This document shows, in pieces, positions 8,147 to 26,557 of a stretch of DNA of 64,000 nucleotides. This DNA is from Lachnospiraceae bacterium P6B14 (GTDB lineage Bacteria > Bacillota > Clostridia > Lachnospirales > Lachnospiraceae). A program made the position numbers and the translations under genes. The notes below the pieces were generated by a model that was not told the origin of the DNA, did no database searches, and saw nothing but the letters and a program-made list of their open reading frames with translations. Location: contig JHWZ01000002.1 in the NCBI GenBank assembly GCA_000687695.1, positions 124,001 through 188,000 of the forward strand, read 5' to 3'. Numbering within the stretch: position 1 is the stretch's first letter; each line of letters starts with the position of its first letter.

Positions 8147-8307
8147 ATATGAGAAAAAGCTTAAGAATTCGATAGAAAAGCGTTGATTAAATAAGGGAAA
8201 TGTGGTAAAATTATAATTTGGGCTGTGATGAGTCAGATATACACAAATTAGCCCTAAGAATGTACGAGAAAAGGTGCCGACACGAAGGGCCGGTCAAGGA
8301 GGTTCTG

Positions 8308-9585
8308 ATGAAGAAATGCGCAATTTGTGGGAAGGAATATCCAGATAAGGTAAAGTTTTGTGTAAAATGCGGAAAACCACTTGAGGAAACAGGGGTTAAT
8401 CAAACTCCGCAGCCTGAGCCGGTTCCGATTCCTAAGCCTGAGCCAAAGCCGGAACCGAAACCTGAGCCAAAGCCGGAACCGAAACCGGAGCCGATACCGG
8501 TACCAATGCCGGAGCCGGCGCCACAGCCAGTTCAATCTCAGTATCAGGCGCCTATGAATAATCAGTCAAATACAAGCACCGGAATAAACTCTTTTGCTAC
8601 GAACAATAACTTGAACTATACAGCGGGAAAGGGTAAAACCGGTTCGAAGGGGCTACTCATTGGAGTTATCATCGCACTTGGAGTGGTAATCCTGGCAGCG
8701 ACTGCAGTGATTATTATAATGCTAACAAAAGATGATACACCGAATCAGGCAAGTCAGCAGACGCAGATAAATGAATCTGTTGTGCCCGAAAGCAATACTG
8801 ACACTCCTGCTTCAGAAGAACCAGAAAATGAAGATAGCACCGAGTCAGAGGAGAAAGAGGAGGTATCAGAACCTCAGGATATCTCCGAATACCAGCAATA
8901 CTATGACTCGATTGAAGATACATTTGGGAAATATATCATGTCCGGAACAGAGTCTGGCCAGTATTCTGCATACCTTGGTGGACTTGGAACGGCTCTTAGC
9001 GGAAGTGATGTAAAAGCATGCGAGTATAACTATAATCAGTTGAAGAGTCTTGAGGAAACACTTGAGACTAGTTCAAAAGAACGGATCACTAAGCTTCAGA
9101 ACGAGATGAAGAAGCTTAAAGCCAAGTCCTCAACAAAAAAGGTGGCAAAAAGCGTATCCTTCATTAAAGCAGAGACTGAAGCGCAGATTGCAGCTGATTC
9201 CGGGGATTATAAGAAGGCAAAGTCAAAATATGATAGTTGTATCAAAAAACTGAAGAAGGCCGCAAAGTCAAAGAAAAAGAAGAAATCGAACGATGACTAC
9301 TACAAGTCATCACGTAGAGACGATACAACTCAGGAGATTCTTTACACAAGAAGACTTACAGATTCTGAGGTACGTTCTTTAGGTGCTGAGAAGAAGAGAT
9401 ATTATATGAATACGCTATTTGCGATTTATGGGTATCGCTTCAATAATAAGACGATTCAATCTTTCTTCGACAATCAGAGCTGGTATTATCCGGACACATC
9501 TGTTGCTGTTGGAGATCAGCAGACTATTAAGAGCTACTTCAATGATAACGCAAAATATAACTATAGAAAACTTGGTGGAGAGTAA
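8308..9585 (+). CDS. Zinc-ribbon membrane protein with YARHG ectodomain
   Basis: This 425-residue protein starts at ATG 8308, eight bases after AAGGAGG. A longer in-frame reading from TTG 8218 has no such site. Order: zinc ribbon with Cys4, Cys7, Cys18, Cys21; a Pro-Glu-Pro-Lys tandem spacer at about 40-75; one membrane helix at about 113-138; an acidic Ser/Glu linker; a Lys-rich helical part (235-335); and a C-terminal YARHG-type domain, visible as 'AIYGYRFNNKTIQSFFDNQS' followed by 'WYYP'. The topology should be zinc ribbon inside, YARHG outside. YARHG domains are extracellular modules of unknown ligand, often in cell-wall-associated proteins. The amidase gene follows 12 bp downstream, in the same unit led by promoter-element copy 1. 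This fits a job in sensing or servicing the wall. Confidence 0.85.
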   Translation: MKKCAICGKEYPDKVKFCVKCGKPLEETGVNQTPQPEPVPIPKPEPKPEPKPEPKPEPKPEPIPVPMPEPAPQPVQSQYQAPMNNQSNTSTGINSFATNNNLNYTAGKGKTGSKGLLIGVIIALGVVILAATAVIIIMLTKDDTPNQASQQTQINESVVPESNTDTPASEEPENEDSTESEEKEEVSEPQDISEYQQYYDSIEDTFGKYIMSGTESGQYSAYLGGLGTALSGSDVKACEYNYNQLKSLEETLETSSKERITKLQNEMKKLKAKSSTKKVAKSVSFIKAETEAQIAADSGDYKKAKSKYDSCIKKLKKAAKSKKKKKSNDDYYKSSRRDDTTQEILYTRRLTDSEVRSLGAEKKRYYMNTLFAIYGYRFNNKTIQSFFDNQSWYYPDTSVAVGDQQTIKSYFNDNAKYNYRKLGGE

Positions 9586-9597: not shown

Positions 9598-10515
9598 ATG
9601 AAGCGAATTGATCGGATGAGAGAAGGTACTTTAACTAAAAAGACGCTGGTGGTAATACTGGCTGTATTGGCATTAATAATAGCTATTGAAGCTATAGTCC
9701 TTATTGCTATTTCTCATAAATCCAATCCAAACAAAGAAACTGTTGTATCCGAAGCGACACAAACACCAGAGGTGGTTCCCACTCTTACACCGGAGCCTAT
9801 GGTAGAACCGACACAAGTGCCAACTTTGGAACCAACAGAAGCACCTACACCAGAACCAATACCTGAAGAAACGGAAACACCAACAAATGGGTATAAGATT
9901 GCCATTGATCCGGGACATCAGTTGAATTCAGATGGAGGGCAAGAACCAATAGGACCTGGATCATCAACAAAAAAGGATAAGGTGTCAAGTGGGACGGCTG
10001 GTGTGTCAACAGGTGTCCCTGAGTATCAGCTAAATCTTGACATAGCCAAAAAACTGAAAAAAGAGTTAAAAGCACGTGGTTACGAAGTTTATATGATCCG
10101 AACCAAGAATGATGTCCGGATATCCAATATTGAAAGGGCGCAGGCAGCGAACGATAGCGGGGCGGATATCTATATTCGTCTTCACGCGGATGGATCTGAT
10201 AGTCATAGTGTTCATGGAGCTAGTGCTTTGTATCCGACGCCGGATAACCCATATGTTTCTCATTTGAGTAAGAAATCAAAGAGATTATCTCAGTGCGTTA
10301 TAGATGCGTACTGCGAAAAAACGGGGATTGATAACCGTGGGCTTTCAAAAAGAGATGACTTAACAGGGACAAACTGGAGTGAGATACCAGTGACGTTGCT
10401 TGAAATGGGGTTTATGAGTAACGCCGCTGAAGATGAACTTATGCAGGATGAATCGATGCAAAAGGATATGGCGGAAGGAATTGCAGACGGAATTGATAAT
10501 TATTTCGGCTTATAG
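9598..10515 (+). CDS. Membrane-anchored N-acetylmuramoyl-L-alanine amidase (Amidase_3)
   Basis: This 305-residue protein cleaves the amide bond between muramic acid and the stem peptide of peptidoglycan. It has a membrane anchor at about 15-40, a Thr/Pro/Glu linker at 45-98 and an Amidase_3 catalytic domain at 100-305. Zinc ligands and catalytic residues typical of the family are all present: His107 in DPGHQ, Glu142 in PEYQLN, His196 in RLHADG, and Glu269 in LLEMGFMSN. The anchor implies action at the outer membrane face. The ribosome site is weak (AAAGGGA) and the gene lies 12 bp after the YARHG gene, so coupling to it is likely. As a cell-wall hydrolase in a unit with the shared promoter element, it is a plausible output of the envelope-sensing sigma factors. 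Confidence 0.93.
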   Translation: MKRIDRMREGTLTKKTLVVILAVLALIIAIEAIVLIAISHKSNPNKETVVSEATQTPEVVPTLTPEPMVEPTQVPTLEPTEAPTPEPIPEETETPTNGYKIAIDPGHQLNSDGGQEPIGPGSSTKKDKVSSGTAGVSTGVPEYQLNLDIAKKLKKELKARGYEVYMIRTKNDVRISNIERAQAANDSGADIYIRLHADGSDSHSVHGASALYPTPDNPYVSHLSKKSKRLSQCVIDAYCEKTGIDNRGLSKRDDLTGTNWSEIPVTLLEMGFMSNAAEDELMQDESMQKDMAEGIADGIDNYFGL

Positions 10516-10617: not shown

Positions 10618-10684
10618 CAAGGAAGACGGCCCAAAACCAAACAACACATATTAAATCCCGAGAAGCGGGTGAAAGGAGTTCATT

Positions 10685-11050
10685 ATGATGAGCACATTAC
10701 CAATTTACAAGAAAGTAGGTCTTTTTGCATCAATCGGAGCATCAGTACTTATGGTACTGAGTCTGTACCTTGGAGGAAACACAGCTCCGGAAACATTTGG
10801 AAGATTTATGGCAGATGCTGTAAGTGTGATTGCAGTTATCCTTCTGATTGCGGCAATGGTTACAGGTGGAATTGTAGATGCATTTGGTATTTCGTTAAAG
10901 GCAGCAAGAATTGCATGGCATCTGTGCCCGTTCTGGATTGTTGATCTGGTGGTTGCCCTTACAGCTGGACTGTTTACATTTCTTGCTATGATGATCCTTC
11001 CGATCATTCCGTTCATTGTTAATTGCAGACGTTATGCTTATGGGGATTAA
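10685..11050 (+). CDS. Small four-helix membrane protein, paralogue 2 of 3
   Basis: This 121-residue protein opens with MMSTLPIYKKVGLFASIGAS, has four hydrophobic segments, keeps the 'VTGGIVDAFGISLKAAR' loop, and ends in 'LPIIPFIVNCRRYAYGD'. The two ATGs in tandem (10685, 10688) are both usable after GAAAGGAG. The 5' region matches that of the gene at 7778 over the ribosome site and first 17 codons, which shows a recent copy event or selection on the leader. A short hairpin (10657-10669) sits directly before the ribosome site. It heads the operon of zinc-ribbon genes. Function unknown. Confidence 0.85.
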   Translation: MMSTLPIYKKVGLFASIGASVLMVLSLYLGGNTAPETFGRFMADAVSVIAVILLIAAMVTGGIVDAFGISLKAARIAWHLCPFWIVDLVVALTAGLFTFLAMMILPIIPFIVNCRRYAYGD

Positions 11051-11099
11051 ATAAACACACGTAATCAATCTCGTGAAAAGCGAGTGAAAGGAGTACACT

Positions 11100-11489
11100 A
11101 TGCTTAATCAGTTACCAACATACAAAAAAGTAGGCTTTTTTGCCTCGATCCTTGCAACAATTTTAATGACAGGTGGCCTTGTCCTCATGTTTGCTATCCC
11201 TGGAGCATCTAAAAACGACTCAATAATCGGGATGCTTCTTACAGTGCCAATCGTGATAGGGTTTATATGTATGCTTGTAGCATATTTCACAGGTGGTATT
11301 GTTGAAGCATTTAGGATGGCGCTCAATATCGGAAAATGGGGATGGTTGGTTGTACCGTTTCCGGCAGATATCTTTACGGGTATAATTGCAACGATTCTTG
11401 CACTTTACGTATTTATCGCTTTTCCAGTGGTTCCTATGTATAAGAGCTGCAAGAACTATGTTATGGAAAATGGTGGTTATATAGAATAA
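11100..11489 (+). CDS. Small four-helix membrane protein, paralogue 3 of 3
   Basis: This 129-residue protein is the most diverged of the three small membrane paralogues: MLNQLPTYKKVGFFASILAT at the start, 'FTGGIVEAFRMALNIGKWGW' between helices 2 and 3, and 'FPVVPMYKSCKNYVMENGGYIE' at the end. The shared Tyr-Lys-Lys-Val-Gly lead, the Gly-Gly-Ile-x-x-Ala-Phe loop and the single Cys near the C-terminus are kept in all three. It follows paralogue 2 by 49 bp, and its leader has the same small hairpin (11070-11084) and TGAAAGGAG site. Probably cotranscribed with the zinc-ribbon genes. Function unknown. Confidence 0.85.
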   Translation: MLNQLPTYKKVGFFASILATILMTGGLVLMFAIPGASKNDSIIGMLLTVPIVIGFICMLVAYFTGGIVEAFRMALNIGKWGWLVVPFPADIFTGIIATILALYVFIAFPVVPMYKSCKNYVMENGGYIE

Positions 11490-11508
11490 TTAAACGGAGG
11501 GATTGCTT

Positions 11509-12459
11509 ATGTTTTGTCCAAATTGTGGAAACCAGATAGAAAGTGGTCAAAAGTTCTGTGCTTCTTGCGGAGAAAAGCTGGATATTGAAGAATATCTAGA
11601 CGAAGAAAAAACTACAGAAAATGCAAACTCTACACCTGTAGTCGAGGAAAAGCATTCAACCGGATCTGCCCAAGGAAAACAGGGGAAAAGCTGTGTGTGC
11701 TGCGGTGGCAAGGTCAATCTCCTTACAAGAACAAAACTGATGGATGGCAATTATTTGTGTTCAAACTGTACATCGATTGTTCCTGGATACATGAAAAAAA
11801 GCATCAAGGATTGGTTTGTAGATGATTATTATGAGTACAAGGATTATCGAAAGTATTCACAAGAATCGCTCGCACCGATGTATAATGAGATGGCATCATA
11901 CGGAAAGATAAGTTTGGATCTGGAGCATGGCTTGTTCTATTTGAATGGAGGGTTCCTTGGAGGACTTAAGCCAGATACTTTGATTCTTGAGATGAAAAAT
12001 GTAATGTATTATGAGTTTGACTTTATCCCCAAAGAATACAAGGAAGGTATGTTTAGCGACACTGTATATGGAAAAACAGTATTTCTTATAGCCATGGAGA
12101 AACCTTCATTTGTTTATATGATGGTGTTGGATAAAGAGATCAAGACAAAAGGACGTGTTTCTGGAATCTTTTCAAAAAAGCTTGTTTACGAGATGCCAAA
12201 AAAACTTGAAAAGTTTGAGGCAAACTTTGAGAGGGCATATCTAAGAGCACATCCGGATGAGAACACATATGGTGTTGAATACGACGAAGCACTTCGTATT
12301 TTTGGCATCAATGATATTTCTGGAGCTTCAGTTGATGATTTGAAAGCGATTCGAAGTGATTTGGTTCGACAGATTGAAAACCAAATTGAAAGTGGCTCGG
12401 CAGATGATGAACTGCGAAGGATCAATGGTGCTTTCAATTGTTTGAAAATGGAAATCTAA
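11509..12459 (+). CDS. Soluble double zinc-ribbon protein (DUF4428-like second ribbon)
   Basis: This 316-residue protein starts at ATG 11509 after CGGAGG. The first ribbon is CPNC-x10-CASC (residues 3-20). After an acidic linker, a second cysteine cluster (CVCC ... LCSNC, about 63-88) with 'GGKVNLLTRTKLMDGNYLCS' looks like a DUF4428 zinc ribbon. A longer globular part follows ('SYGKISLDLEHGLFYLNGGF'), with strands that resemble a PH-like fold, and the tail is helical with 'IESGSADDELRRINGAFNCLK'. There is no membrane segment, so unlike its neighbours it should act in the cytoplasm, perhaps as an adaptor for the zinc-ribbon ends of the membrane proteins. That role is inference. Confidence 0.8.
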   Translation: MFCPNCGNQIESGQKFCASCGEKLDIEEYLDEEKTTENANSTPVVEEKHSTGSAQGKQGKSCVCCGGKVNLLTRTKLMDGNYLCSNCTSIVPGYMKKSIKDWFVDDYYEYKDYRKYSQESLAPMYNEMASYGKISLDLEHGLFYLNGGFLGGLKPDTLILEMKNVMYYEFDFIPKEYKEGMFSDTVYGKTVFLIAMEKPSFVYMMVLDKEIKTKGRVSGIFSKKLVYEMPKKLEKFEANFERAYLRAHPDENTYGVEYDEALRIFGINDISGASVDDLKAIRSDLVRQIENQIESGSADDELRRINGAFNCLKMEI

Positions 12460-12479
12460 AAACCAAGGAGGATTTGCTT

Positions 12480-13160
12480 ATGTTTTGCCCAAACTGCGGT
12501 ACACAGGTAGACGATGGAACTAAGTTCTGTACAGAGTGCGGAAACAGTCTTGATGTTTCTCAGTACGAAAACAATCCTACAAACGAAGATAACACATCTG
12601 AAACGGAGCCGTTTGTGGAAGAAAAATCAGATGAAACACAACCGATTTCCGAACCGGAGGAATCTAAAAAGGTTGTAAGTGGGGAAGAAAAGTCTGAGGT
12701 GTCAGATAAATCAGAACCAGATAAAGTTCAAAATAATCAAGAGACACAGCAGCAGGACGATTTACAAGGGATCGATAAGGCTCAACAGGTTCTCCAGAAT
12801 ACGATTCAATCTATTACAGGTTCGGTGAAATCCGCAGTAAATGGTAATGGGACCGGACAATCAACAGGCTCAAATACAGAGCCAAAGCGTGAACAAGAGT
12901 ATGCACCCGTTAGTCACTATGATTCCAGGTTTAGCTATGAACCGTTGTCTACATGGGCATACTTTGGATATACACTTCTTTTTTCCATTCCGATAATCGG
13001 ATGGATTGCTTTGATCGTTTTTGCGGCTAGCAATACGGGAAACATTCATTTGAGAAATTTTGCGAGATCATATTTTTGCACATTGATTATTGTGATAATA
13101 CTCATTGTAATCTTTTATTACAGTGTATCACAGTATGGCCCATGGTGGTGGGGATTCTGA
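12480..13160 (+). CDS. Zinc-ribbon protein with C-terminal membrane segments
   Basis: This 226-residue protein starts at ATG 12480 after AAGGAGG, 20 bp after the previous stop. An N-terminal ribbon MFCPNCGTQVDDGTKFCTEC is followed by a long disordered acidic and Gln-rich linker (about 30-145), then two hydrophobic helices near 165-190 and 200-218, and an aromatic tail 'YGPWWWGF'. Both ends should face the cytoplasm if both helices cross. The layout (ribbon, floppy linker, membrane) is common in Firmicute zinc-ribbon membrane proteins with no known activity. It is part of the operon led by promoter-element copy 2. Confidence 0.8.
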   Translation: MFCPNCGTQVDDGTKFCTECGNSLDVSQYENNPTNEDNTSETEPFVEEKSDETQPISEPEESKKVVSGEEKSEVSDKSEPDKVQNNQETQQQDDLQGIDKAQQVLQNTIQSITGSVKSAVNGNGTGQSTGSNTEPKREQEYAPVSHYDSRFSYEPLSTWAYFGYTLLFSIPIIGWIALIVFAASNTGNIHLRNFARSYFCTLIIVIILIVIFYYSVSQYGPWWWGF

Positions 13161-13190
13161 TTTACAACAAACTTAAAGGAGGCAATGAAC

Positions 13191-14744
13191 ATGTTTTGTC
13201 CTAATTGTGGTAATAAGGTAAAGGAAGGCGCAAAGTTTTGCGGTGAATGTGGCAATAAGATAGAGATTACAGAACTTGCGGAATCATCTGAAACTGTAGA
13301 GAATGAAATCAACGAGCAAAAATCCGGGGTGGAAGCACCTGTTTCAAGTGGAGAAGCAGTTGACGAAAACCAGAATGCTTCAGAAATACAGCAGCCTGAG
13401 AATGATAGCCAGACAATTGTAAATGAGACACATAATCAGACATTGAATCAAAATTCAAGTTCATATGGTTCGGTTGAGTCAGTTCAGCAAGGAACTCAAG
13501 CTCCTAAGTCATATGCGGCAGCGGTAGGAAGTGGAATCAATTCGGTGAGCCAAAAGACCGGACTAAGTAAAAATACCGTTATAGGGATTATTGCAGGTGG
13601 CGCAGCGTTGCTAGTTACGATTGTTATCATTATTATAGTTGCACTTGCTAATAGATATAAAAAAGTTGATCTGAATGAATTGTTTGAATATGAGATTGTT
13701 GGGGCAAATGGATATGGAACGATTCATTCTGGCATATCAGATGGTAGTCTTGAGGATGCAGTGGTTGAAGCGTTAGGGATTACTGATGGTGATAAAGAAG
13801 ATATGACGAGAATCCGGACAGATTATTATCTGTTTAGTGAAGAGTTTGGGGATCCGATCTCTTATGAGTGGGATAAAACAGAAAACCTTTCAAATGGTGA
13901 TTCTGTTCACCTTACATGGGATGTGAATGACGATATTTTGAAGGATGAATTCGGCATCGTGTTTACCCATAGTGATATAGATGTCACCGTAGAAGGACTA
14001 TCGGATGTTGAGACTATAGATGCTTTTGAAGGTTTAACCGTAAGCTTTGAGGGAATGAGCGGGGAAGGCACTGCCAGCCTTGATTCGAGCGGTTCAAGAG
14101 CTTCCGAATTAGAGTTCCAACTAGATAATGAATATAACTTATCAAATGGGGATGTGGTAACAGTATCTATTTTTTCTCCAGATGGAGGAGATTTGTCAGA
14201 GTATTGTGCACAAAAAGGATATATCCCTTCAGAAACGAGCAAAGAGTTTACAGTAGAAGGGCTTGGTGAGTATCTTTCTTCAGCAGAACAACTGTTGGAT
14301 GATGATATTGTGAAACTTAAGAATGAGGCAGAATCTGTTCTTCGTGCCCAGCAAGCTGAGGAAATGGGCGATAAAGAAAAACTCGTTGGGTTTGAATACG
14401 GGGGAATCTATGTGCTATCGGAAAGGAATGGAAGCCAGGATCCGCATAACAAGCTGTATGTAATCTATACGCTTAATGCTAAGAATCCAGATGGAAAGTC
14501 AAGTGTGATTCAGTATTGTGGATACAAAAATGTGATTCTTGAATCAGATGGTAGTATTACCGTTGATTATAACGATGTAATCCATCCAACTGCTGGCGGA
14601 TGGTTTTCGGATGGTGAAGGAGACAATGTTTATACGAAGGAAGGCGGTACATACCTGTATCATGGCTATGCTTCGTTCGACGATTTTATGCAAAAAAAGA
14701 TCACAGCTGAAGAAGATCAATATACAAGTTCGTTTAGATCATAA
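13191..14744 (+). CDS. Zinc-ribbon membrane protein with large ectodomain
   Basis: This 517-residue protein starts at ATG 13191, eight bases after AAAGGAGG. An ATG at 13185 is in frame but too close to the site. Order: ribbon with four Cys in the first 20 residues; a Gln/Ser/Asn-rich linker (30-125); one membrane helix at about 130-152 ('IIAGGAALLVTIVIIIIVAL'); and an ectodomain of about 360 residues. The ectodomain begins with a 'LNELFEYEIVGANGYG' strand pattern. It contains two repeated beta units, each with 'LSNGD.V.L/V' (around 225 and 315), which suggests tandem Ig-like folds, and ends in a mixed domain. Similar zinc-ribbon proteins are widespread in Firmicutes, often annotated only as zinc-ribbon domain proteins. 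It may be a receptor or wall-contact protein of the regulon. Confidence 0.82.
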   Translation: MFCPNCGNKVKEGAKFCGECGNKIEITELAESSETVENEINEQKSGVEAPVSSGEAVDENQNASEIQQPENDSQTIVNETHNQTLNQNSSSYGSVESVQQGTQAPKSYAAAVGSGINSVSQKTGLSKNTVIGIIAGGAALLVTIVIIIIVALANRYKKVDLNELFEYEIVGANGYGTIHSGISDGSLEDAVVEALGITDGDKEDMTRIRTDYYLFSEEFGDPISYEWDKTENLSNGDSVHLTWDVNDDILKDEFGIVFTHSDIDVTVEGLSDVETIDAFEGLTVSFEGMSGEGTASLDSSGSRASELEFQLDNEYNLSNGDVVTVSIFSPDGGDLSEYCAQKGYIPSETSKEFTVEGLGEYLSSAEQLLDDDIVKLKNEAESVLRAQQAEEMGDKEKLVGFEYGGIYVLSERNGSQDPHNKLYVIYTLNAKNPDGKSSVIQYCGYKNVILESDGSITVDYNDVIHPTAGGWFSDGEGDNVYTKEGGTYLYHGYASFDDFMQKKITAEEDQYTSSFRS

Positions 14745-14766: not shown

Positions 14767-16482
14767 ATGTTTTGTCCCAATTGTGGTAAAGAGATCAAAC
14801 CAGGTCAAAGGTTTTGTGTAGGCTGCGGAACGAAAGCATCTCTGAAAAATGCTGATCCGGTTCAAGATTCGGAGAGTATAGAAATAAAGAACCTGGTGGA
14901 GCGTGCAAAAAGTGGTGATGAGTCTGCATTTCAGGCACTTTACGAAAAGACAAATAAGCGAAACTATTACGTTGCGCTGAAAATGGTTAAAACAGATGCT
15001 GATGCACAGGATGTTTTGCAGGATGCATATATTCGAATCTATCAGCACTTGGATCAGTATACCTACAATGGAGAAAGCAGTTTTGCCTCATGGAGTTCGA
15101 AGATAGTATCAAATACTGCATTGAATCATCTAAGGAAGAAGCAAGCTGTACTCTTTTCTGATATTGAGGGTGATCAAGAAGGTGATTTCACACTCGAAAT
15201 AGAAGATGAGGATGAATCTCGCCAGCCGGAGTTAGCCTATGATAAGAAAGAGACCTCACAGATTGTCCAAGAACTGCTGGATACTCTTTCGGATGAACAG
15301 CGAGTCTGTGCAATGATGTTCTATTACCAGGAACAATCCGTAAAGGAGATAGCATCAGAAATTGGCTGCTCAGAAAATACGGTAAAAAGCCGTCTAAACT
15401 ATGCTCGAAAGAATATGATGGGTAAAGCAGAAGAACTCAAGAAAAGGGGAATCCTTACTGGTATCCTTTCAATGGCTGGTCTGTTTGCAATTCTTCGCTC
15501 GAACGAAGCCCTTGCATCGGTTTCTACGCCTGACACATCCGCATTTTTTGCAAAATTGTTATCAGAAGGAAACTCCGAATCAATGGGTGTATCTGGTATG
15601 GGAACATCTGGTATTGAATCAACAAGTTCTTTAAACGGAACCGCATCGATATCTGGTGCCAGTGCTTCTACGACAGCAAGTACGGTTGCTGGTGCGGCGG
15701 GAACTGGTATAGGAGCAAAAATAGCTATTGGAGCATTATGTGGGACATTAGCAGTGGCGGGTGGAGCCGCGGTATTTATGAACTTGCCATCAGGGAATAA
15801 TAATACAACTGTTAAGGAGCTTTCTACCGAAAATGTGGATGAAACCGATAATTCACCTGTATCAGGAGGTGCTACATCAACCACTCCTGAACCAACCATA
15901 GAACCGACGCCAGAAAGAAAAGATCCGTTAGAGTATTCTGTTGAGGATTGTGAAAACAAAATAAAAGAATTAAAAGCATCCAAGCCAGTTAAAAAGATAA
16001 AAAAAGGCCGGATGGAAATATTAAGCGGATCGATACAGGCAGTTGTAAATTCGATGGGTTCTGGTGAGAAAAGACTCATAAGAGACGATGAGTCTATCAA
16101 AGAAATACTACAGAGTCAATCGCTTGAATTCTTAGGGGAAAGGCTTATTGATCCTGATAAGGACTGGTATATAGAGCTTTCTGATGCAAAAGAACTTTGG
16201 AGTAGTTTTTTTGGATTCAAAGAGGATGATAAAATTGTCATTTTTGATGAAGGTGGTTGGGAAAAAACCGAGGATGATATGATTCATGATGTTGCTGATG
16301 GGGAACTGGGATTATACCCAATTGAAAAATCTATAAAGGTTTATGAAGATGATGAATGTCGCCTTATTACCGGAAAGGCAATACCGGAATATGAAGGTGA
16401 AGATGAGTTGTTATTTGAGATTCTTCTAAAGAGAATTGACGGATTTGATCCCGGTACACTATTATACATCAAGACATCATAA
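14767..16482 (+). CDS. Membrane-tethered ECF-type sigma factor with zinc ribbon, copy 1
   Basis: This 571-residue protein starts at ATG 14767 after TGGAGG. Order: zinc ribbon (Cys3, Cys6, Cys17, Cys20); sigma region 2 at about 45-122, with the 'DAQDVLQDAYIRIYQHLDQY' core-binding and -10 helices and 'FASWSSKIVSNTALNHLRKK'; an acidic link; sigma region 4 at 165-215, with an LSDEQRVCAMMFYYQEQSVK start and the 'EIASEIGCSENTVKSRLNYA' helix-turn-helix; a hydrophobic stretch 229-244; a Ser/Thr/Gly-rich linker; a strong membrane helix 314-340; and a C-terminal domain of about 230 residues, probably outside. If both hydrophobic stretches cross, the tail would be inside. ECF factors are normally soluble and held by a separate anti-sigma; here factor, anchor and putative sensor are one chain. 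It closes the operon led by promoter-element copy 2. Confidence 0.88.
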   Translation: MFCPNCGKEIKPGQRFCVGCGTKASLKNADPVQDSESIEIKNLVERAKSGDESAFQALYEKTNKRNYYVALKMVKTDADAQDVLQDAYIRIYQHLDQYTYNGESSFASWSSKIVSNTALNHLRKKQAVLFSDIEGDQEGDFTLEIEDEDESRQPELAYDKKETSQIVQELLDTLSDEQRVCAMMFYYQEQSVKEIASEIGCSENTVKSRLNYARKNMMGKAEELKKRGILTGILSMAGLFAILRSNEALASVSTPDTSAFFAKLLSEGNSESMGVSGMGTSGIESTSSLNGTASISGASASTTASTVAGAAGTGIGAKIAIGALCGTLAVAGGAAVFMNLPSGNNNTTVKELSTENVDETDNSPVSGGATSTTPEPTIEPTPERKDPLEYSVEDCENKIKELKASKPVKKIKKGRMEILSGSIQAVVNSMGSGEKRLIRDDESIKEILQSQSLEFLGERLIDPDKDWYIELSDAKELWSSFFGFKEDDKIVIFDEGGWEKTEDDMIHDVADGELGLYPIEKSIKVYEDDECRLITGKAIPEYEGEDELLFEILLKRIDGFDPGTLLYIKTS

Positions 16483-16596
16483 AAAAGCATTGCGGGATAT
16501 TGTTATGAATGTTCAATGGCTGTTTTACTGGAATCTGAAGGTTAAACAACCCAAGAATAGAATGATTATTCACCCTGTTTAGGGAGGAATGAAGAA

Positions 16597-16956
16597 ATGA
16601 GCATACTTGGGAATATAATTTGGTTTCTGACAGGAGGGTTTATTGCAGGTTTAGGCTGGCTGGTATTAGGGTGCCTTTGGTGTATTACAATTATAGGAAT
16701 ACCGATTGGTATACAGTGCTTCAAATTTGCCGGGCTGTCATTTTTTCCGTTCGGGAAACATGTGGAATATGATGACGGACTCGGTTCCATTATTCTGAAT
16801 ATATTTTGGGTGTTACTTGTGGGGATTGAGATGTCGCTGTTTCATCTTATTATTGGCGCAATACTCTGTTGTACGGTGATTGGGATACCGTTCGGATTAC
16901 AGCATTTCAAAATTGCAAAGTTAGCATTTTTGCCATTTGGAACAGGAGTTTTTTGA
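16597..16956 (+). CDS. YccF-family membrane protein
   Basis: This 119-residue protein starts after AGGGAGGA. It consists of two tandem YccF-type units, each with a Gly-rich hydrophobic helix followed by 'IIGIPIGIQCFKFAGLSFFP' (residues about 32-51) or 'VIGIPFGLQHFKIAKLAFLP' (about 95-114), and a terminal 'FG' turn. YccF proteins are small inner-membrane proteins of unknown activity. The gene lies 114 bp after the first sigma factor with no obvious terminator between, so it may belong to the same unit. Confidence 0.88.
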   Translation: MSILGNIIWFLTGGFIAGLGWLVLGCLWCITIIGIPIGIQCFKFAGLSFFPFGKHVEYDDGLGSIILNIFWVLLVGIEMSLFHLIIGAILCCTVIGIPFGLQHFKIAKLAFLPFGTGVF

Positions 16957-17123
16957 TGTACAAAATAAAAAAGACTGGATGGGATTTCAGTGACCTTAAA
17001 ACCGTTGGGACATCAAGAAAAATATGCAGTTTATTCTAAAGTATTGAATGACTGAATCGGGACATGGCAATTGTTGTAAATGCGGTATAGTCGAATTACG
17101 GATTGATTTTTTGGTAGGAAAAT

Positions 17124-17537
17124 ATGAAAAGAAAGCGCTCGAAAGTATTAAAAACTGCCGATGAGATTCAGGCAGCGATCAATAAAAAATCTTTTGAATT
17201 AAATTATAACGGTGGAACTATATGGTGTGAGCATCTCGATGGTATGGCAGATCTTGAACAGGAAGTGATTGAAAAGTTTAAAAGGGATCTGCCCAATTTG
17301 ATGCGACCTTCTGTCTCATCCTGCATGATCATTAATTTAGATGAAACGGTAATAACAAAAGCCATAGAGGATGTAATTGTGAACGGTTTGGTTGATGGCA
17401 ATAAACAGTTTAGAAAGATCGCATTCGTAGGCGTTGACAGAAAAACTCATTTAAAATTCAGTGAAATCCATAGCAGAACCGGAGCAATTGTAAATTTTCT
17501 GGATGATTATGAGAAAGCAAAGGAATGGGTGTTGTAG
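17124..17537 (+). CDS. Hypothetical protein with STAS-like C-terminal part
   Basis: This 137-residue soluble protein has no clear ribosome site (TAGGAAAAT). The N-terminus is basic (MKRKRSKVLKTADEIQAAIN). The second half, 'FRKIAFVGVDRKTHLKFSEI' followed by a helix and 'GAIVNFLDDYEKAKEWVL', has the strand-helix-strand rhythm and final Asp-Tyr-x-x-Ala-Lys-x-Trp-Val-Leu helix seen in SpoIIAA/STAS-like proteins. That is a resemblance only. It lies alone between YccF and the second sigma factor. Function unknown. Confidence 0.7.
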   Translation: MKRKRSKVLKTADEIQAAINKKSFELNYNGGTIWCEHLDGMADLEQEVIEKFKRDLPNLMRPSVSSCMIINLDETVITKAIEDVIVNGLVDGNKQFRKIAFVGVDRKTHLKFSEIHSRTGAIVNFLDDYEKAKEWVL

Positions 17538-17786
17538 CTCTTTAATTGTCAAGTGTTTTGGATTCAAGCATCATTACTTACAGAGAACACATAGAGCCCG
17601 ATAGACATTATGTAATTCGCTAGTAGGTTGCTCTAATAATCTTATATGCAGCCCTATTGAAATGAATGACAAGGCTCGTATTTATCTTTTTCAAAGAAAT
17701 ATTTTGGTGGAAATACGGATTTGAAAAAGCAGTTTGAGTATTTTGAAACAGATAGTTGAAAACAGTATGGTGAGGGAGGATTGTTT

Positions 17787-20282
17787 ATGTATTGTCCAAA
17801 TTGTGGTAAAGAGATCAAACCAGGTCAAAAGTTTTGTGTAGGCTGCGGAACGAAAGCAAATCTGAATAGTGCTGATTCGGTTCAAGAATCAGAGAGCAAA
17901 GAAATAAAGGATCTGGTGGAGCGTGCAAAAAGTGGTGATGAGTCTGCATTTCAAGCGCTCTATGAAAAGACGAATAAGCGAAACTATTACGTTGCACTGA
18001 AAATGGTTAAAACCGATGCTGATGCACAGGATGTATTACAGGATGCATATATTCGGATTTACCAGCATTTGGATCAGTATACCTACAATGGAGAAAGCAG
18101 TTTTGCTTCTTGGAGTTCGAAGATAGTATCAAATACTGCACTCAACCATCTTAGGAAGAAGCAAGCTGTCCTCTTTTCTGATATCGAAGGTGACCAAGAA
18201 GGTGATTTCACACTCGAAATAGAGGATGAGGATGAATCTAGGCAGCCTGAATTGGCTTATGACAAAAAAGAAACCTCGCAGATTGTTCAGGAACTACTTG
18301 GGACTCTGTCTGATGAGCAGCGTGTTTGCGCTATGATGTTCTATTATCAGGAGCAATCTGTGAAGGAGATTGCTTCAGAAATAGGTTGTTCCGAAAACAC
18401 CGTGAAGAGCCGCCTTAATTATGCAAGAAAAAATATGATGAGCAAGGCCGAGGAACTCAAGAAAAGAGGAATACTTACGGGAATCCTCTCTATGGCTGCT
18501 CTCTTTGCAATACTTCGCTCGAACGAGGCGATGGCTATGGAGCATATTCCAGAATCAGTATATGCAGGTATTTCGAGTGGGATAAATGGAAATATCGGAG
18601 CAGCAACGACTACAATCACGGAGGGAACAAGCGCTGGATCATCTGTTGTAGGAAGCTCTTCTGCTATGGCTTCTGGAGTAGCTACTTCGAGCGGTGCAGC
18701 AACTGGCGTGGCGGTATCAACAGGTTTGGGATTAAAGATAGCTATAGCAGTTCTTGGGGCGGTTGCGTTGATTACAGCAGGAATTGCAACGACTCTTGTG
18801 ATAACCAAGAACTCAGAACCATCGAAAATTGAGTCAGAAGTGGATAAACCCGATGGCGAAGTTGAAAAGCCGGCTTCAAGTGGCTCGTCAGCAAACGTAG
18901 ATGAAAACAATAATGCGAATATGGATGATAAGACTAAACTCTTGAATGAATTCGCAGATCAGTATGAATACTTAACTCAGTATCATGATGAATTGTCTAT
19001 GGAACTGACCAGAAACGTAGATTCTGAAGGGATAGGAAAGAATGCTGATGTTTCATATTCGGATAGAGTGTTCAGCAATCCACTCAGTTATGCTATCAAA
19101 GATTTTGATAAAGATTCCGAGCAGGAATTAATGATACTTGAGGTTGAAAAGACAAAACCAAAGAGTGAACTCTATTCTAAATCATCAAAGACGCCAAAAC
19201 TTGTAGTAAAAATGTATGAGGTTGTCGGAGATAAGGTTGAAATGGTAGACCAAGTATCAGAGTTCGGTGATGTCATTTTTTCAGGTGGCATGGAAGGATT
19301 GGGAGGTTCTTTTGCAAGCTTTACATTTGAATACAAAGGTAAACAGATAATTGCTTTTCAGGAAATAATGGGTGATATTTCCAGCTTATTTGCGGATGGT
19401 GGTGGAAATACCCGGTTTGCCGCATTAACGTATGATGGATCTAAACTAAACGTTATGAAAGAATCCGTCCTGGAGTTTTGGTCAACTGGTGGCGACGAGT
19501 CTTTTGATTATCATAAAAAATGGTATTCCTTCTATGACGAAAAAGCTATGAAAATGAGAATCAAAGAGTTTAGTTGTGTTGGGATCAAGCTTACAACTGG
19601 TGATTTGATTAATACTGATAAAACCCCATACAACACTGTAAAGAGTGTAGAAACAATATTAAAAGTAAAGAATGAGAACTCTCAATACAATACCGAAGAG
19701 AACGACTATAAATATTTATTAACATTTGAAAGCGGTTTTACTTCGAGTGGGATAAGTATAGATACTATTCAAAATGCTTACAAGGAATACTTTGAGGGAA
19801 GAAAAGGGGAAGTATCAGTAGAAGGAGTAGATGCTAAGGCGGGATCTGGATTCAAGAATGTTTCTCTTAGTTTTAATCAGCTAGATGAGTATAAACTATT
19901 TGACATAGATGGTGATGAAATACCAGAAATGTTCATGTGCGACAAACTAGAAATGGAAGATTCTCGAGAATTCCTTGTTGTCTTTTCTTACAATGATGGC
20001 AAAATAACACCGCTGTTTGCATACAAAGGATATGATGACGCAGCAATATCTGAGGTCACACACACCGGTAATAGCGGTATATGTGTAGAGACCTTTGATG
20101 GAAACTATTATTATATAAAGTATGATAACGGGAAAATGATATCAGATGTTACAGTCACACGCTCTGAAGATGAAGATTACGAATATCATTTCCAGGGAGT
20201 ATACTCAGATGGCCGAAAAATGTCTGAATCAGAGGCGGATCAGTATATGTCAAGTAATACAGGAAGATGGATTATTTCATAA
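17787..20282 (+). CDS. Membrane-tethered ECF-type sigma factor with zinc ribbon, copy 2
   Basis: This 831-residue protein starts at ATG 17787 after GGGAGGA. Residues 1-250 match the factor at 14767 with 13 substitutions, nine of them in the first 42 residues: zinc ribbon, sigma region 2, sigma region 4 and the first hydrophobic stretch are shared, and the DNA is also very similar. After residue 250 there is no similarity beyond composition. It has a Ser/Gly/Thr linker, a membrane helix at about 313-338, and an ectodomain of about 480 residues. That ectodomain holds two acidic calcium-loop-like motifs, 'DFDKDSEQELMI' and 'DIDGDEIPEMFM', as in integrin-alpha or VCBS-type repeats. The shared front and private back suggest the same promoters answer different external signals. 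Which external signal is unknown. Confidence 0.88.
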   Translation: MYCPNCGKEIKPGQKFCVGCGTKANLNSADSVQESESKEIKDLVERAKSGDESAFQALYEKTNKRNYYVALKMVKTDADAQDVLQDAYIRIYQHLDQYTYNGESSFASWSSKIVSNTALNHLRKKQAVLFSDIEGDQEGDFTLEIEDEDESRQPELAYDKKETSQIVQELLGTLSDEQRVCAMMFYYQEQSVKEIASEIGCSENTVKSRLNYARKNMMSKAEELKKRGILTGILSMAALFAILRSNEAMAMEHIPESVYAGISSGINGNIGAATTTITEGTSAGSSVVGSSSAMASGVATSSGAATGVAVSTGLGLKIAIAVLGAVALITAGIATTLVITKNSEPSKIESEVDKPDGEVEKPASSGSSANVDENNNANMDDKTKLLNEFADQYEYLTQYHDELSMELTRNVDSEGIGKNADVSYSDRVFSNPLSYAIKDFDKDSEQELMILEVEKTKPKSELYSKSSKTPKLVVKMYEVVGDKVEMVDQVSEFGDVIFSGGMEGLGGSFASFTFEYKGKQIIAFQEIMGDISSLFADGGGNTRFAALTYDGSKLNVMKESVLEFWSTGGDESFDYHKKWYSFYDEKAMKMRIKEFSCVGIKLTTGDLINTDKTPYNTVKSVETILKVKNENSQYNTEENDYKYLLTFESGFTSSGISIDTIQNAYKEYFEGRKGEVSVEGVDAKAGSGFKNVSLSFNQLDEYKLFDIDGDEIPEMFMCDKLEMEDSREFLVVFSYNDGKITPLFAYKGYDDAAISEVTHTGNSGICVETFDGNYYYIKYDNGKMISDVTVTRSEDEDYEYHFQGVYSDGRKMSESEADQYMSSNTGRWIIS

Positions 20283-20454: not shown

Positions 20455-20617
20455 ATGGACCAGTTTTTTTAGAGCAATCATAAAAAGGGATGCAGATTTT
20501 TTCGATTTACCAGATGAAACCACTAAAACGCTATGGATCCAGATTCTAAGTCGGGTTCATATGAGCAATAAAAACAAAGAAAAGGAAGGTGTTAATCATG
20601 AAAACAAAAAAGACTAG
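20455..20617 (+). pseudogene. Small gene interrupted at a T7 homopolymer (frameshift)
   Basis: An ATG at 20455 after AAAGGAG opens a frame that hits TAG at 20470 directly after seven T. If one T is skipped, the frame runs 54 codons to 20617: MDQFFRAIIKRDADFFDLPD, then ETTKTLWIQILSRVHMSNKN and a Lys/Glu-rich end. The good ribosome site, the sensible composition of the shifted product and its overlap with the start of the next gene suggest a real gene, broken or read by slippage on the T run. The possibility of a sequencing error cannot be excluded. No family recognised. Confidence 0.5.
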
Positions 20618-21665
20618 GATAATTGCCGTATTTATGGCGTTTGCTCTTTCGATTGGAGGCGTATCTGTTCAGGGTCAAGCTACTCCTGCGGAGGCGGCGA
20701 TTGTGGATGCGATTCCATTTCAAGTAGGGGAACTTGTTCAGGGAAGATATGATCAAACATCACAGGACGGAGAATATCTGTATTACTCGTTTACAACAGG
20801 ATCGGATAAGGCATTTTATTCGTTTTCGTTTAACTCAAACAGCGAAGCCTACTGGAACATAGCTGAGGACATCGCCTTTACTGACCGATTCTTTACATAT
20901 GATAGATATGGAACAAGAACTGAAGATCTTCACGCACTAAAACAGAATGCTACATATTTTGTTCGCGTGGAATATGATGAAAAAGACGATAATCCATTTA
21001 CGTTTAGAGTGGATAAGTATGTTGATGATTTGGGTGATGATGCTTTCTCTCCTTATGTGATTGAGAGTGATAAAAAATACTCGTTCAATATACAGAATGA
21101 AAATGACAATGATTGCTTCGAGTTTACAACAGGAAAAACAGATTATGCACTTTCAGTTTCCGCAGGGGACGGAGTGTACTATAATATTTATCTTGATGAT
21201 TTGTTAACAGTTCCGATGTGGAGTTATGATAAATATGGAACAAGATCTATAGATTTATCTGGACAATTAGATCATGGAAGAAAGTATTGGATTGTATTTA
21301 GGGGAAGCGGTAGTTGGTCAAATTATGATCCAGATCCTTATACATTTCGGATGGATACCGTGATTAATGTTTCTGCTCCATCTTTGAGTTTGTCTGAAAA
21401 GAAAGGTCGTAAAGTGAAGTTGACATGGAGTAAGGTGTCAGGAGCTACAGGATATGTTTTGTATAGAGCAGTCGGATATGGATCAACTTTTAAAAAAATA
21501 AAAACAATAAAAGCAAATGCTAAAAGAACTTATACATCAAAAAAACTAAAAAAGCAAACAAACTATTATTATATGGTGCGCGCGTATAAGACGTACAAAG
21601 GCAAGAAGTATTATAGTGAAAACTCTAACAATGTGTCAAAATATTACTATAGCTGGGAAAAATAA
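20598..21665 (+). CDS. Secreted protein with fibronectin type III domain
   Basis: This 355-residue protein starts at ATG 20598 after AAAGGAAGGTG. It has a signal peptide (residues 1-33, cleaved near ATPAEA). Two similar beta units, with 'YDRYGTRTEDLHALKQNATYFVR' and 'YDKYGTRSIDLSGQLDHGRK', occupy about 40-260 and look like tandem jelly-roll modules of the bacterial pre-peptidase type. A C-terminal FnIII-like domain of about 90 residues follows, marked by 'KVKLTWSKVSGATGYVLYRA' and 'NYYYMVRAYKTYKGKKY'. There is no membrane anchor or sorting signal, so it is released or held by charge to the wall. Led by promoter-element copy 3. Confidence 0.85.
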   Translation: MKTKKTRIIAVFMAFALSIGGVSVQGQATPAEAAIVDAIPFQVGELVQGRYDQTSQDGEYLYYSFTTGSDKAFYSFSFNSNSEAYWNIAEDIAFTDRFFTYDRYGTRTEDLHALKQNATYFVRVEYDEKDDNPFTFRVDKYVDDLGDDAFSPYVIESDKKYSFNIQNENDNDCFEFTTGKTDYALSVSAGDGVYYNIYLDDLLTVPMWSYDKYGTRSIDLSGQLDHGRKYWIVFRGSGSWSNYDPDPYTFRMDTVINVSAPSLSLSEKKGRKVKLTWSKVSGATGYVLYRAVGYGSTFKKIKTIKANAKRTYTSKKLKKQTNYYYMVRAYKTYKGKKYYSENSNNVSKYYYSWEK

Positions 21666-21770: not shown

Positions 21771-23867
21771 ATGAAGAAGAATTCAGCGAAAACTCGGTTG
21801 GTTACAGGTTTTATCGCAGTTGCACTTGTACTTGGTTGGGTTCAGATTGGAGGAAACTATATCTCAAGAGCCGCTAGGCATTCAATCCAAAATCCGATTT
21901 CAATTAGCGATGTATCAATGAGATCAGGGAAAAGGGTGACTTATGACACGGTGTTTCTTGGATCATATCCACAGACAGAAGTGAAGTCTTCAGACCCAGT
22001 ATATTCAAAACTACAGGCTGCTACAAATTGGGATATTTGCGGTGATACAGTGGTTGAGGGAACCAAGTATCGCAGAATAAAGCAGTCGGATGCAGTTGGA
22101 TGCACGATGGATCTTGAGATTTGGCACTACGACGAAGAAAACGACGATTATTATTCAGAAACCGTTGAGCCCGGTATTGGAGCGGATGGTTATAGTCATT
22201 GGGAGGATTATGATACCTACCACTATTTCCGATTCGATCCTATCCGCTGGCGAGTTCTCGATACGGATGGTGAAAAGGCACTTCTTTTGTCAGACATCGC
22301 TATCGATGCTCGTGCAACTGATATTTATATGTGGACTCGTCCTGCAGATCCCGAAGATGTCCTTACGATAGACGGGGTTCGTTATCAGTGTATCGATTCT
22401 ACCTGGGATAACTGTGAACTCAGAAGCTGGCTTAATTCATATGACGCTTCTCATAACTACTATAAGGTGAATTGTTCAGGAAGTGGTGAGAAAAGCTTCT
22501 ATAACGTAGCATTCTCAAATAGTGAAAAGTCTGCGATCCTTACGACTTCGCTTAACAATGAGGGTGGAAGGACTGCATGGCATAACGGAAATACGTACGA
22601 ATACACTGTCGGAGGCAGGGATACGGAAGATAAGGTGTTTTTACTTTCCTATGATGATGTCATAAGGAAATACGGGTTTTCTGCTTCTGATGACGTGGCT
22701 GATGAAGCTAGAAGATGTAATCTCAGTGACTATACGATCTCGATGGGGTTATATGGCGAGGCTGATGATGGAAACATCTCCCGTGACAAGTGGTCAGTCC
22801 AGTGGGGGCTTAGGACAGCCACGGATGGAGTGAGCTTCCATTATGGATCTGATCATTACGGATCGGTAGAAAAGACCGGAAAGAGGTACATCTATAGAAA
22901 TCGCGATGGTTCTGTTTATAACTATGGTGACTGGGTTGGAAGATTCCAGGGGGTACGCCCTGCAATGATGCTGGATCTTTCATCAAGTGCGTATTCCTAT
23001 GCAGGAACGGTATGCACGGACGGAACATACAGCGACGGAACACAGTACTCTCTTGGAAACTGCGAAACCTCTCATATGCTTAGGCATGTAGATGCTGTAG
23101 AAGCTACATATGAGTCTGCAGGACACCAGGAATACTGGATTTGTGATCGATGTGGAAAAGTGTTTGCAGATAAAAATGGTCAGATTGAAACAACTCTCTT
23201 TGAACTTGCTATTCCAAGATTGACTGAGAATACACACGCCCCGGTTACCTCTCAAACACCGGTGGTGGCTCCGACTGAAAAACCGAATGAAACACCTATG
23301 CCTGTGCCTACTACAAAACCTAGTGCCACACCAATGTCAACAGTAAAACCAATTGCCACGGTAAAACCAAGTGAAACACCAAAGACTACACCGTCCGTAA
23401 AACCTAGTGCCACACCTTCGTCAAAACCAAGTGTTTCACCTAGTGCCTCACCTGATAATACTTCGGAAGAAGAATCAAGTCAAATACCTCAGGCATCAGA
23501 TAAACCTATAGAGAGTTTTGAGTTGAACCGAATCTGTAGTTCAGGTGTGACATATGAGATTAACGGGTTGAATGCCTGCGTCCAGAAAGTAAAGAACACG
23601 AAAAATGTGACAATCAAAAAAACAATCAAACAGGGCGGAAAAAAGTATAAGGTTACAAAGTTGAGAAAAGGGTTGTTTGCCAGAAAAAAGAAGGTAAAAC
23701 GCATCACAATTGATGTGACATATATTAAATCGATAGGTCGCCATGCATTTGACGGAATTGCGAAGAATGCCGAAATTAAACTGATAGGATCAAAAAAGCG
23801 AATAATGGATGTGAGAGTTTTGATAGTAAGATCAGGACTTCCCAATGGTGTCAAATTGAAGTCGTAA
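21771..23867 (+). CDS. Secreted DUF6273-type protein with BspA-like tail
   Basis: This 698-residue protein starts after CGGAGGTAG. It has a signal-type hydrophobic start (residues 8-28). A large domain at 45-405 has the pattern of DUF6273 modules: 'YDTVFLGSYPQTEV' at the front, 'FDPIRWRVLDTDGEKALLLS' in the middle, 'ELRSWLNSY' with a later 'FYNVAFSNSEKSAI', and 'GVRPAMMLDLSS' at the end. This fold is frequent in Lachnospiraceae exported proteins, and its function is unknown. A short Cys-bearing module (CDRCGKVFADKNG, about 460) follows, then a Pro/Thr/Ser linker (485-570). The C-terminal 110 residues, with 'KKYKVTKLRKGLFARKKKVK', resemble a BspA-type leucine-rich repeat. No wall anchor is present. 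Confidence 0.82.
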   Translation: MKKNSAKTRLVTGFIAVALVLGWVQIGGNYISRAARHSIQNPISISDVSMRSGKRVTYDTVFLGSYPQTEVKSSDPVYSKLQAATNWDICGDTVVEGTKYRRIKQSDAVGCTMDLEIWHYDEENDDYYSETVEPGIGADGYSHWEDYDTYHYFRFDPIRWRVLDTDGEKALLLSDIAIDARATDIYMWTRPADPEDVLTIDGVRYQCIDSTWDNCELRSWLNSYDASHNYYKVNCSGSGEKSFYNVAFSNSEKSAILTTSLNNEGGRTAWHNGNTYEYTVGGRDTEDKVFLLSYDDVIRKYGFSASDDVADEARRCNLSDYTISMGLYGEADDGNISRDKWSVQWGLRTATDGVSFHYGSDHYGSVEKTGKRYIYRNRDGSVYNYGDWVGRFQGVRPAMMLDLSSSAYSYAGTVCTDGTYSDGTQYSLGNCETSHMLRHVDAVEATYESAGHQEYWICDRCGKVFADKNGQIETTLFELAIPRLTENTHAPVTSQTPVVAPTEKPNETPMPVPTTKPSATPMSTVKPIATVKPSETPKTTPSVKPSATPSSKPSVSPSASPDNTSEEESSQIPQASDKPIESFELNRICSSGVTYEINGLNACVQKVKNTKNVTIKKTIKQGGKKYKVTKLRKGLFARKKKVKRITIDVTYIKSIGRHAFDGIAKNAEIKLIGSKKRIMDVRVLIVRSGLPNGVKLKS

Positions 23868-26353: not shown

Positions 26354-26404
26354 TTGCGCCTCCTTTCGAAAAATCATCTTGACAAAAATTCCTTCCTTTG
26401 TTAT

Positions 26405-26487: not shown

Positions 26488-26557
26488 TGCTTATCCGTGA
26501 AACGGGTGTTCGACGAATCATCAAAATGTACCGTAAATAAGCGGATTCCAGTAACTT

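Follow-up and report, generated by a model that had tools for sequence, protein, structure and literature searches.

Comparison with described membrane-tethered sigma factors

The extracytoplasmic function (ECF) sigma factor SigW is soluble and has a separate membrane anti-sigma factor (SigW/RsiW), and in the canonical ECF/anti-sigma pair the separate cognate anti-sigma factor is encoded adjacent to the sigma factor. This study concerns a different arrangement, the tandem genes sigA and sigB of Lachnospiraceae bacterium P6B14, which lie on the forward strand of a 64,000-nucleotide stretch of contig JHWZ01000002.1. The whole stretch is called the window, and positions refer to it unless another locus is named. 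In both proteins a sigma factor is joined through a membrane helix to a long C-terminal domain, and no anti-sigma Pfam domain was found above cut-off in the 18 neighbouring proteins scanned, as a preliminary description of the locus had stated (an unfamiliar kind of anti-sigma is possible). It is moderately likely, judging from the sequence, that sigA and sigB are one-chain membrane receptors with an ECF sigma factor as the cytoplasmic half, feeding one self-reinforcing regulon. The sequence itself shows the anatomy of the proteins, the recurrence of the arrangement, a promoter-like motif with its link to the sigma genes, and the constraint on the front halves; the topology, the function of the promoters and their start site, their use by both sigma factors, the mode of activation and the ligands are inferred.

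According to the accessible part of PMC8999054, extensions that span the membrane occur on ECF sigma factors of groups ECF48, ECF52, ECF53 and ECF243, and the extensions of ECF115 (exemplified by Bacillus sp. FJAT-18019), ECF48, ECF53, ECF36 and ECF270 are expected to be activated by proteolysis. The family of sigA and sigB shares with the ECF48/53/115/243 type a membrane helix in the C-terminal extension. The helix was present 3' of the sigma part in sigA, in sigB and in 34 of the 37 family loci obtained by a scan of named bacterial genomes, and was missing, by the threshold used, from L105, L112 and L132. The family may already carry the number ECF115 or that of another ECF group. The novelty implied by the preliminary description was overstated, since membrane-fused ECF sigma factors are already in print in the accessible parts of PMC8999054 and PMC5826349.

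The ECF52 protein SCO4117 of Streptomyces coelicolor likewise combines an ECF sigma factor, a membrane region, a proline-rich stretch and an outer domain in one protein, and positive autoregulation was suggested for it, as given in the accessible part of PMC5826349. The zinc finger of ECF52 lies in the C-terminal extension after the sigma part, whereas the zinc ribbon of the present family, if present, is N-terminal and precedes region 2. The outer domain of ECF52 is carbohydrate-binding, whereas the outer domains of sigA and sigB gave no Pfam match above cut-off and were unlike each other. ECF52 is described in the same part of that report as exclusive to Actinobacteria, while the named relatives here were Clostridia and Erysipelothrix. 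Membership of ECF52 was rejected because of the zinc position and the host group.

IutY of Pseudomonas putida (ECF243) likewise has a sigma factor fused to a membrane-bound C-terminal regulatory part. As far as the accessible part of PMC8999054 describes it, IutY serves iron cell-surface signalling, contains a fused anti-sigma and has been demonstrated to undergo proteolysis. Among the matches listed (25 of 32 Pfam families) for 34 members of the present family, no FecR-type or anti-sigma family occurred. These 34 rows comprised sigA, sigB and 32 named loci, and the same rows were used for the alignment, the Pfam scan and the AlphaFold2 model of sigA; of the 37 named loci, L112 and L132 were omitted for their shortness, and L117, L121 and L126 because a contig end truncates them.

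The sensor modules of SigI/RsgI differ between paralogues. The SigI/RsgI system of Clostridium thermocellum resembles the present family in that its signalling units are paralogous and bear their outer sensor modules on a membrane protein; however, in the accessible part of PMC10575876 the sigma factor and membrane sensor are separate and the paralogous sigma factors differ in promoter choice, whereas here both parts form one chain and the sigma halves are alike. By the definition given there, in which a domain other than region 4 reads the −35 element and RsgI is a separate protein, membership of SigI/RsgI was rejected, as an ordinary region 4 is present and the sensor is fused. Literature searches directed at sigma factors tethered to the membrane and at the present architecture listed neither an account of this architecture nor a pairing of unlike sensors on a uniform sigma half with its own promoter class; the main ECF classification paper was not covered, and absence from print is not claimed.

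Overall architecture of sigA and sigB

The sigA gene (14767..16482, + strand; a GTG start at 14755 is also possible) encodes 571 residues. From the N-terminus, the protein was composed of a zinc ribbon (residues 2–23, 14770..14835; Zn_Ribbon_1, E 2.1e-7), sigma region 2 (residues 58–126, 14938..15144), sigma region 4 (residues 165–217, 15259..15417), a conserved hydrophobic motif (residues 224–250, 15436..15516; common family form approximately KKGYKLYxxAPLPxLxxLL), a linker rich in Gly, Ala, Ser and Thr, a membrane helix (residues ~319–337, 15721..15777) and an outer domain (residues 345–571, 15799..16479). The sigB gene (17787..20282, + strand; possible alternative TTG start at 17781) encodes 831 residues with the same front, a membrane helix at residues ~320–338 (18744..18800) and a longer outer domain (18822..20279), which was remotely related to that of the G026 protein (26% identity, E 1e-11). 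Zn_Ribbon_1, Sigma70_r2 and Sigma70_r4_2 exceeded the Pfam cut-off in both proteins, and a hydropathy scan gave a single membrane helix in each. TIGR02937 matched sigA above cut-off (E 1.1e-29), and the closest solved chain by sequence was SigW (5wuq; E 1.1e-26). The sigB outer domain had no NCBIfam match.

The preliminary description had assigned to both proteins a zinc ribbon, sigma regions 2 and 4, a membrane helix and a long C-terminal domain, and this was borne out by the open frames, the Pfam matches and the hydropathy scan. Its coordinates were correct, as was its count of 13 differences between the fronts, and in the alignment similarity ended after residue 250. The observation of the sigA/sigB pair is confirmed.

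An acidic loop of approximate form DxDxxxPE(L/M/I/V) recurred in otherwise unlike outer domains of the family and is perhaps a metal-binding element. It was carried by sigB, C10a, C10b, L097, L101, L102, L103, L104, L106, L109, L116, L119 and L121.

Divergence of the front and back halves

When the fronts were aligned from their MFCPNCG and MYCPNCG starts, residues 1–250 of sigA and sigB differed at positions 2, 15, 25, 27, 28, 31, 34, 38, 42, 172, 219, 238 and 249. Nine of these 13 differences fell in the zinc ribbon and the following stretch (first 42 residues). No difference occurred across residues 43–171, so that region 2 was identical, and region 4 contained the single difference at residue 172. 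Since the sigma halves are nearly identical and the differences avoid region 2 and the helix-turn-helix, sigA and sigB should bind the same promoter. In 30-nucleotide steps, DNA identity was 73–97% through codon 250 and 17–43% thereafter, and the sigA back gave no blastp match to the sigB back at E 1e-3.

In codons 1–150 the synonymous divergence (dS) was 0.38 and the nonsynonymous divergence (dN) 0.031, whereas in codons 151–250 synonymous change was saturated (56 changes in 66 sites) with a dN of 0.026. These values by codon block suggest an old, strongly conserved region-4 half and a more recent homogenisation of the first 150 codons. A recent simple duplication as the origin of the pair was rejected because of the saturation in codons 151–250, and sigA and sigB are thus not merely recent duplicates.

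Recurrence of the arrangement and the wider family

Contig C10 of the same genome (L009) contained a second tandem pair, C10a and C10b, of 737 and 744 residues and without the zinc ribbon; a third gene, C10c, also belonged to the family. The fronts of this pair were 98% identical, with an identical run of 251 nucleotides, and the backs were similar only along 93 membrane-proximal residues. The top match of the C10a back was G011_25 (45%), and those of the C10b back were G009_44 and G011_192 (41–45%), all from other species; the fronts of these matching proteins were 82–90% identical to the C10 fronts. The fronts of the pair were thus closest within the genome and the backs closest across species, which fits either homogenised fronts with older backs or exchanged backs. 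Because a similar tandem pair exists on C10, the sigA/sigB layout is not due to chance. The view of a receptor-like family in which a uniform transcription-directing half is combined with differing outer halves, put forward in the preliminary description, was supported by this recurrence on C10 and in other species.

In G000, G002 and G061, a membrane-tethered sigma gene has beside it, in divergent or convergent orientation, the gene of a short family member that lacks the membrane helix. These genes (L009 18498–19205, L065 5565–6221 and L112 401–1000) possibly encode a partner or decoy.

The hosts of the 37 loci included Lachnospiraceae, Eubacterium, Pseudobutyrivibrio, Flavonifractor, Oscillibacter, Ruminococcus and Erysipelothrix records, among others; eight loci (L097, L098, L099, L100, L104, L112, L118 and L121) were records already sampled and are not independent cases. 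Sigma70_r2, Sigma70_r4_2 and Sigma70_ECF matched all 34 scanned members, which counts against the family-wide absence of region 2 and 4 residues for core or DNA binding that the preliminary description had named as a sign against its reading. The combination of zinc ribbon, sigma regions and membrane helix that it had proposed for searches held for the sigma regions and largely for the helix; it did not hold for the zinc ribbon, as Zn_Ribbon_1 was found in just four of the 34 members. The hydrophobic motif after region 4 was common to many members, with a loose form in 27 of the 37 named loci.

The outer parts were long and varied across the family and were not minimal anchors; Big_2 was found in five and BspA-type leucine-rich repeats in three of the 34 scanned members. 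The N-terminal side of the helix was more positive in 32 of 39 proteins, less positive in six and tied in one, the automatic choice of helix being doubtful for L105, L117 and L121. By the charge rule, this bias suggests a topology with the sigma half inside and the C-terminal part outside.

A bipartite candidate promoter element

The sequence TAAAACC-N15-GTGTTGTATAGGTGAAAGGG was repeated at positions 7672, 10577, 20349 and 21687, each time preceding a gene start. The four candidate promoters, of the form AAAACC-N15-GTGTTGTATAGGTG and all on the + strand, were P1 (7672..7706), P2 (10577..10611), which heads a tight gene run ending with sigA, P3 (20349..20383), before the gene of an fn3-like protein, and P4 (21687..21721), before the gene of a DUF6273 protein. 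The 19-nucleotide core GTGTTGTATAGGTGAAAGG occurred four times in the window, each time exactly, against a mean of 0.01 in shuffled sequences at three or fewer mismatches. In the whole genome, an 18-nucleotide form of the core with up to three mismatches matched the four exact window sites and one site with two mismatches, and there was no other exact copy. Since the reversed core yielded four matches at the same looseness, weight can be given to the exact sites alone. An ECF sigma factor would be expected to read a promoter with an AAC-type −35 and a short −10 part at ECF spacing; the bipartite motif, as a candidate for such a promoter, resembles TGAAAC-N16-CGTA of SigW.

An identical core was located upstream of the operon of the G026 orthologue, the first gene of which, on visual comparison, encoded a homologue of this cluster's small hydrophobic proteins. 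In the C10 cluster and in G011, AAAACC-N15 was followed by sequences close to GYRTCATATRNGTG. The 15-nucleotide spacing of the four window sites was kept in the G026, C10 and G011 sites, a spacing that the relaxed scan imposed. When the window and G026 sites were compared with the C10 and G011 sites, the −35 part was shared and the −10 part differed by sigma type. In the proteins, the CSENTVKSRLNY stretch of region 4 was identical in sigA, sigB, C10a and C10b, whereas region 2 differed.

A small putative protein, encoded by some 50 codons (just 17 in L089) and containing IRGPD close to its N-terminus, was observed 3' of the C10-type promoter in L009, L091, L095 and L089.

Association of the element with membrane-tethered sigma factors

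A membrane-tethered sigma factor was present in seven of 39 genomes of the genus (G000, G002, G009, G010, G011, G026 and G061), with strong front matches and long frames; presence was judged among the matches listed, and a remote member was possibly missed in the other 32. A relaxed form of the promoter pattern occurred at 17 sites in six of the 39 genomes, and its reverse at none. The motif was found in five of the seven genomes with a membrane sigma factor versus one of the 32 without (Fisher p 2e-4). Among 295 genomes of the order, the relaxed pattern was found in the present genome and in 0 of the 294 others, the membrane-sigma carriage of which was not assessed. The relaxed pattern was framed after the sites at known loci had been seen, and matches at those loci are not independent; independent of its design were the other matches in G011, G009, G022 and G061 and the blank in the 294 genomes of the order.

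Upstream regions were scanned for 30 of the 37 loci, with L097 and L104 (motif-defining) and L112, L117, L121, L126 and L132 (short or cut) omitted. A looser motif preceded five of these 30 family genes, against a shuffle mean of 0.12 (0 of 300 shuffles reached five), and the reversed motif preceded two; the match at L110 was already known beforehand. The G022 copy of the motif (L089, G022:C123:1364) was identical to the G061 copy and lay on a contig of just 3170 nucleotides.

Putative regulon

All genes downstream of the four candidate promoters lay on the + strand. The first gene after P1 encoded a small hydrophobic protein (7778..8146) with paralogues at 10685 and 11100, and was followed by genes of a protein with a zinc ribbon, a membrane helix and a YARHG domain (8218..9585) and of an N-acetylmuramoyl-L-alanine amidase (Amidase_3) with an N-terminal hydrophobic helix (9598..10515). 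From P2 to sigA there were five close-packed genes (10685..14744), encoding two small hydrophobic and three zinc-ribbon proteins (11503, 12438/12480 and 13185), and the gaps in this run through sigA were at most about 50 nucleotides. P3 was followed by the gene of a secreted-type protein with an fn3-like stretch (20589..21665; 24.3 bits, just below the cut-off of 25), and P4 by that of the DUF6273 protein (21771..23867), which had a signal-like N-terminus by eye. In G011, one site started 109 nucleotides 5' of a membrane-sigma gene itself, and other sites in G011 and G009 preceded, by eye, genes of secreted-type or zinc-ribbon proteins. This arrangement suggests a self-reinforcing regulon of surface proteins.

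A leader with GTGAAAGGAG was repeated at 7744–7781, 10651–10688 and 11066–11103, directly 5' of the three paralogous genes of small hydrophobic proteins.

Proposed mechanism and alternative explanations

In the proposed mechanism, sigA and sigB would each span the membrane once, with the sigma half inside and the sensor outside, and the two unrelated sensors would act on one promoter class, giving two inputs and one output. The target promoter would be TAAAACC-N15-GTGTTGTATAGGTG, heading the sigA run and the genes of zinc-ribbon membrane proteins, the cell-wall amidase and secreted-type proteins. As copies of this candidate promoter head the run that contains sigA, the system would be self-amplifying. 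Without a signal, the sigma half would be held at the membrane. A signal would make it available to the core polymerase, most likely via regulated intramembrane proteolysis, or otherwise by relief of a self-inhibition exerted by the hydrophobic motif after region 4. This motif may be a segment that inhibits the protein itself or one that dips into the membrane.

Several results weigh against the receptor reading. The sigA back had no relative among the fetched sequences. The AlphaFold2 model of sigA had a mean predicted local distance difference test score (pLDDT) of 56, the sigma part being good and most of the remainder below 50, and the sigB outer domain had a mean pLDDT of 52 and no confident fold. 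A Foldseek search with the sigB outer-domain model gave no match at E ≤0.001; the best 50 rows, DDB1-type and related complexes, had TM-scores of at most 0.15 and were treated as noise. The motif and the sigma factor were not always found together: G022 has the motif, and no membrane sigma factor was found in its 98%-complete genome, while G002 and G010 (61% complete) have a membrane sigma factor without the motif. The reversed pattern matched in 11 of the 295 genomes of the order, seven of them in one genus, so that chance matches are not nil. The strict motif was upstream of two of the 30 other family genes (shuffle mean 0.05; 0 of 300 shuffles reached two), and the CSENTVKSRL stretch of region 4 was found in only 15 of 42 family sequences. 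No motif site was located directly 5' of sigB, which leaves its transcription unexplained. No terminator-like hairpin was found on the + strand from the end of sigA to sigB, in a scan near chance level, and read-through to sigB is therefore possible. The generic scans were near shuffle levels (promoters, 48 versus 43 shuffled; terminators, 13 versus 10 shuffled) and thus say little on sigB transcription.

The sigma half might instead work while tethered, without proteolysis: a long flexible linker would allow polymerase to be recruited by it at the membrane, and the outer domain would alter only its conformation or clustering. The linker between the region-4 motif and the helix contained on average 57% Gly, Ala, Ser and Thr and 8% charged residues (39 proteins, with zero-length linkers counted as zero), and in many members could serve as a leash. 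The putative targets, mostly membrane or secreted-type proteins, would also suit this arrangement. On the other side stand the membrane helices. Cleaved membrane helices are often rich in small residues, and such residues made up 51% of the helices in 36 family proteins (the 39 topology rows without L105, L117 and L121, which had no clear helix or cut ends) versus 31% in seven neighbouring proteins, a weak hint of cleavage. The presence of one M50 protease in the genome discriminates little, because all 14 of the 14 control genomes have the family too. Cleavage activates IutY and has been proposed for ECF52 in the accessible parts of PMC8999054 and PMC5826349, and intramembrane proteolysis was preferred for this reason. 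Release by intramembrane proteolysis is plausible by analogy with these proteins, and activity in the tethered state is rather unlikely.

A separate, unrecognised partner could be the real sensor or inhibitor, with the C-terminal domain as a mere anchor; examples would be a zinc-ribbon membrane neighbour or the small protein encoded in the sigA–sigB interval. Zinc-ribbon proteins with a similar start occur in the sigA gene run and in the C10 cluster. The 137-residue protein encoded between sigA and sigB (17124–17537) gave a SpoIIAA-like match below threshold (E 0.084; 14 bits, cut-off 25), and the SpoIIAA-like fold family includes anti-anti-sigma proteins. However, the long and varied outer parts argue against a role as anchor only, and with no anti-sigma domain above cut-off in the 18 neighbours of the cluster, such a partner is unlikely.

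It is improbable that AAAACC-N15-GTGTTGTATAGGTG, instead of serving as the promoter of these sigma factors, is a different cis element that travels with the cluster, for example a regulator site or an RNA leader. Conservation extends beyond the likely start site (GGTGAAAGGG), which exceeds the need of a bare promoter, and the G022 copy occurs without a detected membrane sigma factor. Nevertheless, the bipartite layout with 15-nucleotide spacing, in which the −10 part follows the sigma type and the −35 part is constant, speaks for a promoter. An Rfam RNA leader was rejected as the identity of the repeated element, as no Rfam family reached the gathering score there, the sole match in the 64 kb being a tRNA.

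That the pair is a duplicated sigma-fused gene, with one back replaced or decaying and without shared function, is very improbable: the near-identical fronts, the sigA back without relatives and the 251-nucleotide identical run of the C10 pair, which points to gene conversion, would fit it, but the synonymous saturation of codons 151–250 at a dN of 0.026, the occurrence of a similar arrangement twice in the genome and the intact long open frames of both backs argue against it.

Flanking genes

A terminator-like hairpin just left of P1 (7605..7632, + strand) possibly marks the left edge of the sigma cluster, in a scan that was overall near shuffle level. Further left, on the − strand, were a gene whose 1557-residue product contains SpaA-type repeats and matches an LPXTG-type anchor (435–5108) and a gene for an actin-like (ALP_N) protein (5663–6613). 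To the right of the cluster, a phage-type integrase gene (25124–26413) adjoined a tRNA-Pro gene (26557–26632), so that an integrated element might contain or border the cluster; a search near these two genes for repeats of the attachment type found none in window positions 1–30000.

Implications

More tentatively, the family may represent a repertoire of one-chain receptors in gut Clostridia, in which outer sensors were exchanged between lineages or predate the species, the sigma half is held uniform within each genome by selection and gene conversion, and several unlike sensors converge on one promoter class, possibly with the sigma factor active in the membrane. If the receptor reading is right, the family would help to interpret the large sigma-70 proteins found in Clostridia of the rumen and gut, and could supply parts for gut-bacterial sensors. 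A candidate promoter, its sigma reader and the putative target genes are all named, and with a −10 part varying with sigma type and a fixed −35 part, promoter choice by ECF region 2 is directly testable. In that case receptor and sigma factor would be united in a single polypeptide, several sensors would feed the same promoter class, and a single set of cell-surface genes could plausibly be switched on by either of two external signals.

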